From positions 3,038,001 through 3,102,000 of the forward strand of contig NZ_CP007032.1 in NCBI RefSeq assembly GCF_000231405.2: a stretch of DNA of 64,000 nt, read 5' to 3'. A program made the translations under genes and the position numbers. The notes below the pieces were generated by a model, which worked only from the letters and a program-made list of their open reading frames with translations, was not told the origin of the DNA and ran no database searches. Below are positions 3,989 through 28,919 of this stretch, in pieces. Source of the stretch: Desulfitobacterium metallireducens DSM 15288 (GTDB lineage Bacteria > Bacillota > Desulfitobacteriia > Desulfitobacteriales > Desulfitobacteriaceae). Every line of letters starts with the position of its first letter. Positions within the stretch are counted from its first letter, which is position 1.

Positions 3989-5362
3989 CTAAGACTCATC
4001 CCTTAACTTTTGACTTAAAAGGTAAGAATCCACTAACGCGATCTGTTCGCCCATAGGTTTTAACCGAAACAGAAGACGAACCAATTCCCGAGCCAGACGC
4101 GTCGAATCATGGCGTATGATGTCATCAGCCTGCAGCACATCTCGTTCTACATATTTTACCCCTAACCATTCTACATTACGGGCTTCCCCATTAACCGGAA
4201 AGGAGTCTTGCTGAGCATAACGTTCCAACAATTCTTGGGGAATCTCTCGATTATTAGCGAGAACAACATCAACAAAATTTGCGCCGCAATGATCGACAAT
4301 CGCCTGAAGATGATCAGCTACCGTGTAATCATCGGTTTCACCCGGCTCAGTCATAATGTTACAGACGTAAACACACGGAGCGGAAACCTCCTTGATCTTA
4401 TCCCGAAGTCCCTCCACTAAGAGATTAGGAAGAACGCTCGTATAAAGACTTCCCGGTCCCAAGACGATCAAGTCTGCTTCTTCAAGCGCTTTCAAAGCCT
4501 CAGGCATAGGATGGCAATCACTGGGTTCCAAAAAGACCTGTTTGATTCGCCCTTCCGCATCGCGGACGGCTGTTTCACCTTTAATTACGGTTCCATCTGC
4601 AAGCTCTGCACCCAATATGACTTGTTCTAGCGTCGAGGGATACACATTTCCCCTCAGGGCAAAGACCTTACTCACAGACTCAATTCCCTTTTGGAAATCG
4701 CCAAAAGTATCAGCTAAACCAGCGATCAGTAAATTCCCCAAGCTATGTCCCTTTAACGTCCCCGTATTAAAGCGGTAGGAAAATAAATGCTCCATGATAT
4801 TTTCTGTATCAGCTAAAGCGACAAGACAGTTACGAACATCTCCCGGGGGCAAAATTCCCATTTCATGACGAAGTTTTCCCGAGCTTCCTCCATCATCCGC
4901 AACCGTGACAATTGCCGTTAAATTACACGTATATTCCTTTAAGCCCCGCAAAAGGGCCGAAAGTCCAGTTCCTCCGCCAATCACGACAATTTTGGGACCG
5001 CGTCGCAAATGTTGGCGTGTATACATTACATCTACAATTTTTCCCTCATCATCAGGCAAAAGGGCTGAAATGATTGAACTTAACATGCGTTTAAAACCAA
5101 TGAAAATCGCAACAATCCCTATTATCGAAATAAAAATACCCATCGGCACAGCGGTTCTTGGTGCACTTCCCGTTAAATGATAAACCATTTCACGAAACTG
5201 CACTTCCAAGTACCCCAAGGCAACTCCATAATTCATGACGGATAAACCCGCAGCAAATAAGAAGATCCCTAAGACGGCTAAAAGGAACCAACGTTTCACA
5301 CCGAGATTAGGATAAAGCCACTTAAGGGCATTGGATCGGAAATCGCCTGCTTTTCTTTTCAT
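3989..5362 (-). CDS. yvcK: YvcK/CofD-like gluconeogenesis factor with membrane anchor
   Basis: YvcK family (CofD-like fold, binds UDP-sugars in homologues), needed for growth on gluconeogenic carbon sources and for correct envelope morphogenesis in Bacillus. The conserved domain begins at about residue 122 with KIVVIGGGTGLSALLRGLK, then VADDGGSSGKLR, and LIVLGPGSLYTSVLPNLLV. At 457 aa it is about 120-140 residues longer than the Bacillus protein, because of an N-terminal extension with two hydrophobic segments (about 25-48 and 72-90), so it is probably membrane-attached. Its ATG overlaps the rapZ stop by four bases, indicating translational coupling. Confidence 0.95.
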   Translation of the reverse strand: MKRKAGDFRSNALKWLYPNLGVKRWFLLAVLGIFLFAAGLSVMNYGVALGYLEVQFREMVYHLTGSAPRTAVPMGIFISIIGIVAIFIGFKRMLSSIISALLPDDEGKIVDVMYTRQHLRRGPKIVVIGGGTGLSALLRGLKEYTCNLTAIVTVADDGGSSGKLRHEMGILPPGDVRNCLVALADTENIMEHLFSYRFNTGTLKGHSLGNLLIAGLADTFGDFQKGIESVSKVFALRGNVYPSTLEQVILGAELADGTVIKGETAVRDAEGRIKQVFLEPSDCHPMPEALKALEEADLIVLGPGSLYTSVLPNLLVEGLRDKIKEVSAPCVYVCNIMTEPGETDDYTVADHLQAIVDHCGANFVDVVLANNREIPQELLERYAQQDSFPVNGEARNVEWLGVKYVERDVLQADDIIRHDSTRLARELVRLLFRLKPMGEQIALVDSYLLSQKLRDES

Positions 5363-6252
5363 CGCGCTTTCTCCCCTTTTCGGTTACGTGCAGCATCCCG
5401 GTGCTTAACACTCATCGTATAATGCTGCTCGTTCAAAAAAAGCCCGATCCTTTCCGCAATCGCAACTGAACGATGTTGCCCCCCCGTACAGCCAACGCCA
5501 ATCACCAAATGACTTTTTCCTTCTTTAACATAGTAAGGAAGAATATATTCAAGCAGATGAAGATATCTATTCATAAATTCTTGTGCCACTGGATTATTAA
5601 AAATATAATTTTGGACCAGAGGATGTTCTCCTGTTAGAGGACGAAGTTCTTCCACATAAAAAGGATTAGGCAAAAAACGAACATCAATTAACAGATCAGC
5701 ATCAAGGGGTACCCCGTATTTAAAGCCAAATGAAATAACAGAGATCGCGAGCTGTCCTTGTCCTCGCCCTTCGCCATAAAGTTCAGTAATTTGCTGTCTT
5801 AACTGCTGCGAAAGGAGATTTGAGGTATCCATAATCTTATGAGCTTGCCCGCGTAATTCTGCTAGAAGTTTCCGTTCCTCATTGATTCCATCCAGAATCC
5901 GTCCTTGAGGCGATTGCGGATGCCTACGGCGGGATTCCTTATAGCGTCGTACAAGAGCTTCATCTGAGGCTTCAAGGAAAAGAATCTCATAAAGGAAGCC
6001 TTCTCTTTCCAAGTCTTTAAGGGCTTCAGCTAAAGAAGTAAAGAATTCTCCTCCTCTTAAGTCACACACAATAGCGGCTTTAGATACTTTTCCTTGAGAC
6101 TGAGCACATAGCTCAACAAATTTTATAATAAATGCGGGCGGTAAGTTATCAATACAAAAATAACCTTGGTCTTCGAGGCACTGCAACGCCTGGGTTTTAC
6201 CAGCCCCCGATAAACCCGTTATTACTAACAGTTTCATAGATTTACGATCCAA
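5359..6252 (-). CDS. rapZ: RNase adapter/nucleotide-binding protein RapZ (YvcJ)
   Basis: P-loop protein of the RapZ/YvcJ family. In E. coli it controls glucosamine-6-phosphate synthase through small-RNA decay; in Bacillus the homologue hydrolyses GTP and affects competence. Walker A GLSGAGKTQALQ is near residue 14, the family motif IDNLPP follows at about 35, and the C-terminal half has VGCTGGQHRSVAIAE, the conserved RapZ signature. An in-frame GTG at 6261 overlaps the AAGGAGG; I chose the TTG at 6252, which sits eight bases after it, giving 297 aa. First gene of the rapZ-yvcK-whiA-rpoN unit. Confidence 0.94.
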   Translation of the reverse strand: MDRKSMKLLVITGLSGAGKTQALQCLEDQGYFCIDNLPPAFIIKFVELCAQSQGKVSKAAIVCDLRGGEFFTSLAEALKDLEREGFLYEILFLEASDEALVRRYKESRRRHPQSPQGRILDGINEERKLLAELRGQAHKIMDTSNLLSQQLRQQITELYGEGRGQGQLAISVISFGFKYGVPLDADLLIDVRFLPNPFYVEELRPLTGEHPLVQNYIFNNPVAQEFMNRYLHLLEYILPYYVKEGKSHLVIGVGCTGGQHRSVAIAERIGLFLNEQHYTMSVKHRDAARNRKGEKAR

Positions 6253-6399
6253 CCTAGCCACCTCCTTAAATTTTGTCTGTATATCTTATTGAATGATAAA
6301 AATGTCTAGTACCCGTCTATTATATTATGTTAAAACTGAGTCCTTAACCTCTCTAAGATCTTGCAAACGGAGTTACGTTACAGACACTCGGACGGACGC

Positions 6400-6880
6400 T
6401 CGCAGACCAAGCTAAGAGCCTAACTGCTTATGCAAGTAGCAGGGTTCCCTCCCGATTCGCCGTCCTTGGCTCATGGTCGGCGAGTCACATCCGTGTGACT
6501 CGTCCCGCTAAAGCAAGAGCAGTTTTGCCCAAGCTTGGTATCTGCTCGCTTTAAGTCCTCGCTTACTGTAATCGTAACTCGCTTCGAAGAATTTCACGAG
6601 TAAAACCTTTCATCAATTGCTTAAGTAAAGCCTAAGAAGCAACCGAAGGATTTTGATTTACAAGAGGGAGCGACTTCAAAGCGAGCGGATACCAGACTTA
6701 GCAAAAAGGGCGTAGCGGAGACGGGTTGGAAACAGGACGTTTCCAACTGGCCAGTAAGGCAAGGATGCCGATTTTGCCAGCGCCCCGTCGGAGAGAAGGA
6801 CTTGAGCGTTAGTCTGGTACCGCGCAGCTTACAGAGTGACCGGTGTAAAGCAAAATCCTGGAGAATATGCTCTGATAACA
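6400..6880. repeat. Large imperfect palindrome with internal hairpins
   Basis: The 637-base gap between rapZ and the next gene holds no convincing gene. It folds as an imperfect inverted repeat centred near 6616. The clearest paired arms are 6531-6557 and 6672-6700 (for example GGTATCTGCTCGCTTTAAGTC against the complement of GACTTCAAAGCGAGCGGATACC). Matching continues outward to about 6455 and 6780. Each arm also carries its own hairpin at a similar distance from the centre: CGAGTCACA/TGTGACTCG at 6481-6502 and GTTGGAAA/TTTCCAAC at 6725-6747. The remaining 100 or so bases next to rapZ should hold the rapZ promoter, but I see no clear consensus. Confidence 0.7.
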
Positions 6881-6889
6881 CCTTAAGCT

Positions 6890-8080
6890 CTACTTCGCTG
6901 CAGCAATTTTGGTGGCTTCAGTCTGAGCCTGTGTTAACGCGTCTTGTGGTGCTGTTCCTCCCCAGGCTTTCTGCCACGCTGTATCTTGTAAGGGCAGGAG
7001 TTTCCATTCCAAGGCGTCCCCAGTTAAAGGCCAGAGCTTATTCAAACTCTCCGCGACTTGAGGAGCGACTCCTTTTTGTCCCTCCGGTGTCTGATAATAA
7101 GCCACACTTGCCGGGAAATGTGATCCAGCCTGAGCAAAAACTCCTTCGACCTCAGGTTTAAGAAGTGCTTCTTCTACGCTCTTAATTAAGGGCTTAAGGG
7201 CATCCGTTGTTTTAATCGAAGAATTTGCGATTCCAAGGGTTGAACCCGCTAAGCCTTGTCCTTGTCCACCCAAAAGGTTCGACAACGGGATACTTCCCCA
7301 AGGAATATTCGCCTGAGTTAGGGCAGGAGCTTGACTTGCCGGCGCAATCATATAGACAGCCTCTTTATTTGTAAACAACGCCTGCGGATTTGGGTCAACC
7401 CGAAGAATCTTCGCATCGCGCCAGGCTTGAAGCTGCTGGAGAAATAATAAATTCGCCGGATCGTCTAAGGTAAGGCTTGCTCCGTTAACAAGCTTTCCGC
7501 CTTGACCGTTCCACCATAAACCGAGAAGATTACTATTAAGTGAAGGTATCGCCATCACCCCTTTAGTCTCGATCCAATAGGTTAAATTCGGCGGAGGCTG
7601 AACACCATCTGTACGGTAGTAAAGTAACGGAATATCAGTAAGCCAAGGCTGTGCATAAACTTTATCCCCATAACGATAAGGAGAAACTAACCCCGTAAAT
7701 GCATCTCCTTGCGCATCCACAGCTGCTAGAGCCCCTTGAGCATAGAGTTTCGTCAGCGTTTGCTGAGATGCGATAAAGATTTCCGGGCCTTCACCACCCG
7801 CTTGGGCTTGATAGGTTAATCCCGCTAATTGTTCCTCTGGTATCGCCTTAGCCTGGAGTAAAACCTCAGGGTGCTGATCCATAATAAGTTGCAGTTGTTT
7901 GTTTAAATTATCCGCTTCAGCGCCCTGCAGTGTATACCAAATCTCAATCACTGCTGGAGCCGATCCACCAGGCAGCCCCTGCTGAGGAGCTCGGTTACAG
8001 CCCGTCATAAATCCAAGTCCAAAAATTAGTGTTATGATGGTCAGTCCAAATCTGATCTGCGAAGAAAGCCTGTTTTTCAT
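6890..8080 (-). CDS. Extracellular solute-binding lipoprotein (family 1-like)
   Basis: 396 aa with a lipoprotein signal peptide: basic start, hydrophobic stretch at about 10-27 and lipobox FMTGC with the acylated cysteine at residue 28. The mature part resembles the maltose-type solute-binding proteins (IEIWYTLQGAEADNLNKQL near the N-terminus, later GVMAIPSLNSNLLGLWW and ALFTNKEAVYMIAPAS). Start ATG has GAAGGAGCGAAACG upstream. No permease or ATPase gene adjoins it, so the transporter and ligand are unknown; it may be an orphan receptor or work with a transporter elsewhere. Its 3' end runs directly into the palindrome at 6.4-6.9 kb. Confidence 0.8.
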   Translation of the reverse strand: MKNRLSSQIRFGLTIITLIFGLGFMTGCNRAPQQGLPGGSAPAVIEIWYTLQGAEADNLNKQLQLIMDQHPEVLLQAKAIPEEQLAGLTYQAQAGGEGPEIFIASQQTLTKLYAQGALAAVDAQGDAFTGLVSPYRYGDKVYAQPWLTDIPLLYYRTDGVQPPPNLTYWIETKGVMAIPSLNSNLLGLWWNGQGGKLVNGASLTLDDPANLLFLQQLQAWRDAKILRVDPNPQALFTNKEAVYMIAPASQAPALTQANIPWGSIPLSNLLGGQGQGLAGSTLGIANSSIKTTDALKPLIKSVEEALLKPEVEGVFAQAGSHFPASVAYYQTPEGQKGVAPQVAESLNKLWPLTGDALEWKLLPLQDTAWQKAWGGTAPQDALTQAQTEATKIAAAK

Positions 8081-28767: not shown

Positions 28768-28823
28768 TTATTTCATCCCTTTCAGTTGTATTGCGAGAGC
28801 ATGTTCTGACAATGGCGCTTGCC

Positions 28824-28848
28824 TATCAAACTAGGGTTCAGTTTGATA
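28824..28848 (-). terminator. Hairpin after secA
   Basis: TATCAAAC / GTTTGATA stem with a 9-base loop, in the 152-base gap between secA and prfB. No U-tract on the minus strand, so it may only attenuate read-through. Confidence 0.45.
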
Positions 28849-28919
28849 ACGGCTCGCTTAAAGTCTTCACCTGCTTCTCGCAATTCATTTAGTATTATTA
28901 TAGTATTATTCTGTGGTCT

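Follow-up and report, generated by a model that had tools for sequence, protein, structure and literature searches.

A head-to-head pair of TwoAYGGAY-like elements between a lipoprotein gene and rapZ in Desulfitobacterium metallireducens, and its possible link to CsrA

Two inverted elements in the lipoprotein-rapZ gap

The window, the whole 64,000-nucleotide stretch of DNA that was analysed, carries a lipoprotein gene followed by rapZ on the minus strand, with a large palindrome in the gap between them (Table 1). The fold-back that an earlier note had placed near position 6616 is real. It had been read as one palindrome drifting apart; its arms are instead two homologous elements in inverted orientation, identical at 65% of positions over 133 nt (E=2e-4). 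The fold-back is made of two diverged copies, placed head to head, of one structured element of ~215 nt, with a spacer of ~60 bp between them in which no sigma-70-like promoter was found. Each half is a closed fold domain by itself. The left half (6370-6582, minus strand) folds to -104.5 kcal/mol (z -8.5) and the right half (6645-6861, plus strand) to -86.5 kcal/mol (z -6.0), and for either half 0 of 200 shuffles folded as low. The reverse strand folds stably too.

Table 1. Features of the lipoprotein-rapZ gap and its neighbours, in window positions
Feature	Position	Strand	Remarks
rapZ, downstream neighbour	5359-6261	-	conserved beside the lipoprotein gene in relatives
Left element (B-type), TwoAYGGAY-like structured RNA	6366-6584	-	5' end at 6584; R1 185.9 bits, E=1.5e-45, a score that is not independent because the element is in the R1 seed
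Apical hairpin 2, left element	6453-6481	-	GAGCC-AAGGAC-GGCGA, flanking GA/GA
Apical hairpin 1, left element	6481-6502	-	loop ACGGAU, C-G closing pair
Spacer between the two 5' ends	6585-6644		no stable fold
Right element (A-type), same family	6645-6860	+	R1 75.4 bits, E=2.5e-17, outside the R1 seed
Apical hairpin 1, right element	6725-6747	+	loop AGGAC
Apical hairpin 2, right element	6747-6780	+	GGCA-AGGA-TGCC
Lipoprotein gene, upstream neighbour of the pair	6890-8080	-	

Two perfect 9-bp hairpins had been described, one in each arm, and both are present as the first apical hairpin of each element. They had been called unrelated. They are homologous: one hairpin, whose stem has changed in a compensatory way while the GGA loop stayed. 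The two GGA loops of an element lie ~25 nt apart, and their number is suited to one CsrA dimer. Among 58 aligned copies GGA is found in loop 1 of 50, in loop 2 of 57 and in both loops of 49, while the surrounding stem bases vary. The loop form C-ANGGAY-G fits what we take to be the CsrA/RsmE consensus; the second loop base can be any base, and the strict AYGGAY is not always retained. An ANTAR target, with tandem hexaloops having A1 and G4, was also considered, since some loops fit it, and would be a less likely role; members with pentaloops or tetraloops fit poorly.

A dispersed and covarying family related to TwoAYGGAY

No Rfam family reached its gathering threshold in the window. At a relaxed threshold TwoAYGGAY (RF01731) matched the left element over the full model length (6401-6544; E=0.0009, 34.6 bits, cutoff 43), and the two AYGGAY loops of the model fall in register with those of the element. 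The right element has no RF01731 match of its own at E<=10, and it was therefore assigned through the family, that is, through its copies in the same genome (82-85% DNA identity) and a covariance model, R1. R1, whose seed is eight left-type (B) copies including the left element of the window, recovers the remaining copies, among them right-type (A) copies outside the seed. The best copy in the D. metallireducens genome scores 37.3 bits against RF01731, under the 43-bit cutoff, and copies found with R1 in sister genomes pass this cutoff at 44-52 bits. As judged from these sequence comparisons, membership of the TwoAYGGAY family holds, with the individual copies of this genome scoring under the curated cutoff.

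BLAST with either half found dispersed copies in the D. metallireducens genome (a single 3.18-Mb contig), which has at least 28 copies together with shrunken remnants. A 0.73-Mb region (2.32-3.05 Mb, ~23% of the chromosome), partly a polysaccharide gene region, contains 22 of the 28; regional clustering is visible in some relatives too (G014, G020, G032). Matches were found in 42 of 101 genomes (this one and its relatives), nearly all from the same taxonomic family and usually with at least 8-20 copies each; as no more than 22 candidates were scored in each genome, the copy numbers are minimum values. The apical hairpins are lost in some copies. One such shrunken copy lies in the window at 28787-28888 (minus strand; R1 45 bits), between two minus-strand genes. 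Same-strand runs of three to four copies at ~300-356 bp spacing were also seen (G032 L105:7848-9132; G024 L106:5565-6722), the run in G024 standing behind one inverted copy. Beside one element pair of the D. metallireducens genome, on its left side (L036, about 4055-4080), is a GGGGACGGTTCTT motif, which we take to resemble a widespread dispersed repeat of Firmicutes.

Alignment of 58 copies to the model showed two-sided compensatory changes at 67 of 74 base pairs, and no shuffle came near this number. Paired cells made up 90.3% of the alignment, against 34-39% when the partners were slid by 1-3 columns; the alignment was fitted to the model, which somewhat inflates the size of the covariation but hardly affects its existence. 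The earlier note had held that structure is under selection here, and this is borne out by the many copies and the massive covariation. It had proposed a copy search and a covariance model, and copies and covariation were both found, contrary to what a chance fold would give. The covariation also has a strand signal. At pairs predicted from both strands, left-type copies have G-U over A-C at 23:4 (cells not independent), the bias that an RNA role of the forward strand would produce. In right-type copies the two are equal (6:6, cells again not independent). A G/C asymmetry of the linkers was seen around copies, of a kind that neighbouring coding strands can cause.

The two-loop core pattern, found in many copies in Desulfosporosinus, is equally common outside the phylum in Lysobacteraceae (Lysobacter, Luteimonas). 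In nearly all Lysobacteraceae copies only the apical core aligns (model positions ~75-146). Inverted pairing is frequent among these copies too, and at five loci of Luteimonas both the neighbours and a paired site are shared. In Lysobacter and Luteimonas (L148-L193) a second repeated hairpin, GGTTACTTTTCTTTGGGC...AAAGAAAAGTGACC, adjoins the two-hairpin core, and the two repeats recur together. Occurrence in Lysobacteraceae agrees with the published TwoAYGGAY taxon list. It suggests old sharing or transfer; convergence of the core is the alternative.

Insertion and placement of the copies

The element is absent from the rapZ locus of relatives (0 of 29 loci). A lipoprotein gene lies beside rapZ in 28 of these loci, the remaining one (L146) having no lipoprotein match. 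The lipoprotein-rapZ gap is 628 bp here and about 10-190 bp in the relatives' junctions that were read out. From these element-free sites and short junctions, the simplest account is that the pair, a unit of about 0.5-0.6 kb, was inserted into a conserved operon in this lineage alone. Four mutually similar pairs of the same genome are ~0.58-kb units bounded by imperfect terminal inverted repeats (about GAGMATGYGTCTGGGGYG), and no target-site duplication was obvious by eye at these four units. Other copies are older than the lipoprotein-rapZ pair. At the ftsW-murG junction this genome and three genomes from a second genus have elements in a comparable A/B order, so that the pair there is common to two genera; most other relatives have no element at that site.

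The earlier note had remarked that the palindrome lies where the lipoprotein mRNA ends, and such a placement is typical for the family. Among 50 clusters with both neighbours identified, the neighbours being simple ORF calls, 40 are between co-directional genes, 9 between convergent genes and 1 between divergent genes. Within operons the median distance is 32 bp to the upstream stop codon and 88 bp to the downstream start. In 17 of the 18 operon clusters with more than one element the arrangement includes a head-to-head pair; the other cluster consists of four copies in a row on the same strand. A sense-strand preference, expected for a small RNA made by read-through, was not seen in lone copies and is if anything reversed (antisense to the operon 16:6, p=0.05). 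Upstream of the copies promoter scores were the same as those of shuffles, and no terminator signal was found at the copies.

CsrA, mobility and comparison with known systems

The D. metallireducens genome has one csrA, adjoining a putative fliW, which we so name, as an assumption, from its sequence. Within the taxonomic family the median copy number is 14 in genomes with csrA and 1 in those without it (p=3.5e-4), and presence of the element goes with csrA (Fisher p=0.025); kinship is ignored in both comparisons and the copy counts are lower bounds. TwoAYGGAY is patchy over the phylum (40 of 398 genomes). Outside the family csrA was found in 37 of 38 TwoAYGGAY-positive genomes, against 29 of 42 negatives (p=8e-4), the negatives being taken by index number and unmatched, and kinship again ignored. 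In six family genomes elements were found and csrA was not, several of these genomes being incomplete. Some relatives (G017, G023, G033, G041, G044) have three to four csrA-like genes, and element copies tend to be fewer in genomes that carry two or more csrA genes (p=0.049, uncorrected).

The reading favoured here, in which we place middling confidence, is that the locus is a TwoAYGGAY-type pair of a dispersed family and that the two GGA hairpins of the forward RNA would bind a CsrA dimer. Forward-sense transcription of an element would expose the two hairpins, ~25 nt apart, and both could be held by one CsrA dimer. The element RNA might then titrate CsrA, as a dispersed sponge, or bring CsrA to the transcript, as a local CsrA site. 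Copies would spread by some mobilisation system. In a head-to-head pair one member would be in sense whichever strand is transcribed; here this would be the left element, within a lipoprotein-rapZ transcript. In favour of this reading are the full-length RF01731 match and the sister copies above the cutoff, the conserved GGA loops, the covariation, the csrA co-occurrence and the csrA beside the putative fliW, the G-U excess of left-type copies, the insertion between lipoprotein gene and rapZ, and the earlier proposal that TwoAYGGAY binds CsrA. Other results count against it. The strongest points against a read-through sponge are the missing promoters and the antisense bias of the lone copies, from which read-through would mostly make the wrong strand. 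The terminator signal is likewise missing, right-type copies have no G-U excess, some copies are without apical hairpins, and csrA was not found in the six family genomes mentioned above.

The main rival reading, in our view less probable, is a non-autonomous mobile DNA repeat of REPIN/BIME or MITE type, in which the inverted pair moves, the hairpins serve transposase recognition and CsrA is irrelevant. The dispersed copies, the lineage-specific insertion, the prevalence of head-to-head pairs in multi-copy operon clusters, the terminal inverted repeats of the four ~0.58-kb units, the many copies in an unrelated phylum and the tolerance of antisense orientation all accord with it. A mobiliser is the difficulty. 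The Y1/RAYT transposase (PF01797) has no match in this genome or in two others with 14 copies each (G016, G017), and no transposase or other gene family recurs among the ORF families near copies. Weighing most heavily against a pure DNA repeat are the GGA loops, conserved beyond what a hairpin needs, and the csrA co-occurrence, to which the G-U excess of left-type copies may be added. Carriage by a plasmid, phage or virus was also considered; neither the window pair nor the core pattern gave a match there.

The position of the copies, close behind an upstream stop codon and between divergent genes in only 1 of 50 clusters, would also suit a cis-acting 3'-UTR or intercistronic element, whose hairpins would protect the upstream mRNA against 3' exonucleases or adjust how strongly the two genes are expressed relative to each other, as some REPs do. 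The stable fold of the reverse strand and the retention of some sites across genera point the same way. A generic barrier, however, would have no need of a conserved GGA in two loops, and relatives have these operons without the element; we regard this role as improbable. A site acting as double-stranded or extruded DNA (a cruciform, or a nucleoid or recombination site) is very unlikely. It would be in keeping with the long inverted repeats and with the gathering of most copies of the genome into 0.73 Mb, but it leaves the GGA loops and the csrA association without a reason and does not account for the left-type G-U excess. A chance fold or neutral remnant, which the truncated copies and the sub-cutoff Rfam scores might recall, is scarcely credible against the low z scores, covariation at 67 of 74 pairs and an independent Rfam family match; it is refuted for the family, and this particular pair could be decaying. 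Of the three possibilities in the earlier note (mobile element, structured RNA, DNA-structure site), a structured RNA and an inserted repeat both stand, and a pure DNA-structure role is conceivable and not required.

A broader proposal, which we offer as speculation and think unlikely as a whole, is that TwoAYGGAY would be a mobile REPIN-like repeat whose RNA carries CsrA sites. Its head-to-head spread would put a sense copy into any operon that it enters, and copy number, not a dedicated sRNA gene, would set CsrA titration in Firmicutes with csrA/fliW and in some gamma-proteobacteria. If both parts were true, a global post-transcriptional regulator would be adjusted by the copy number of a repeat. 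An orphan since 2010, the TwoAYGGAY family is under-annotated, since no copy in this genome was found above the cutoff and Rfam reports only part of those in sister genomes. Why an RNA that looks regulatory should disperse and insert like a repeat, and in inverted pairs, is a question that follows.

TwoAYGGAY was listed as probably RNA, from gut samples, gamma-proteobacteria and Clostridiales (Weinberg et al. 2010, PMC2864571), and a 2015 proposal made it a CsrA-binding sRNA from two CsrA motif matches (PMC4333381). No published test of this proposal was found in the literature, nor a report of a dispersed, inserted, inverted-pair organisation of TwoAYGGAY; a search for CsrA with REP-like repeats, or for repeats in Desulfosporosinus or Lysobacter, brought up no relevant report. 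Co-occurrence with csrA, conservation of the loops in 58 copies and the element-free site in relatives make the proposal directly testable. The element has the stem topology of the TwoAYGGAY RNA, with two apical hairpins whose AYGGAY-type loops are in register. It differs in that its basal stem is longer (~215 nt, the model having 168 positions) and in that it is present in multiple copies, as head-to-head pairs or tandem runs, with demonstrable insertion.

Like REPINs and BIMEs (Bertels and Rainey 2011, PMC3116915), the element occurs in dispersed intergenic inverted doublets, higher-order runs and decayed singlets. Its units are ~215 nt and not short REPs, RAYT is absent from the genome, and it has two conserved GGA loops with RNA-like covariation. 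Like MITEs it is a short non-coding insertion of several hundred bp, and four units elsewhere in the genome have imperfect terminal inverted repeats reminiscent of theirs; unlike them it has no matching transposase that could be found and no target-site duplication that was seen, and its copies diverge widely yet retain structure. The sponge RNAs CsrB, CsrC and RsmX/Y/Z have many GGA hairpins in one RNA, whereas the element has two, is without a detected promoter or terminator and is spread over dozens of loci; common to both are GGA hairpins suited to dimeric CsrA.
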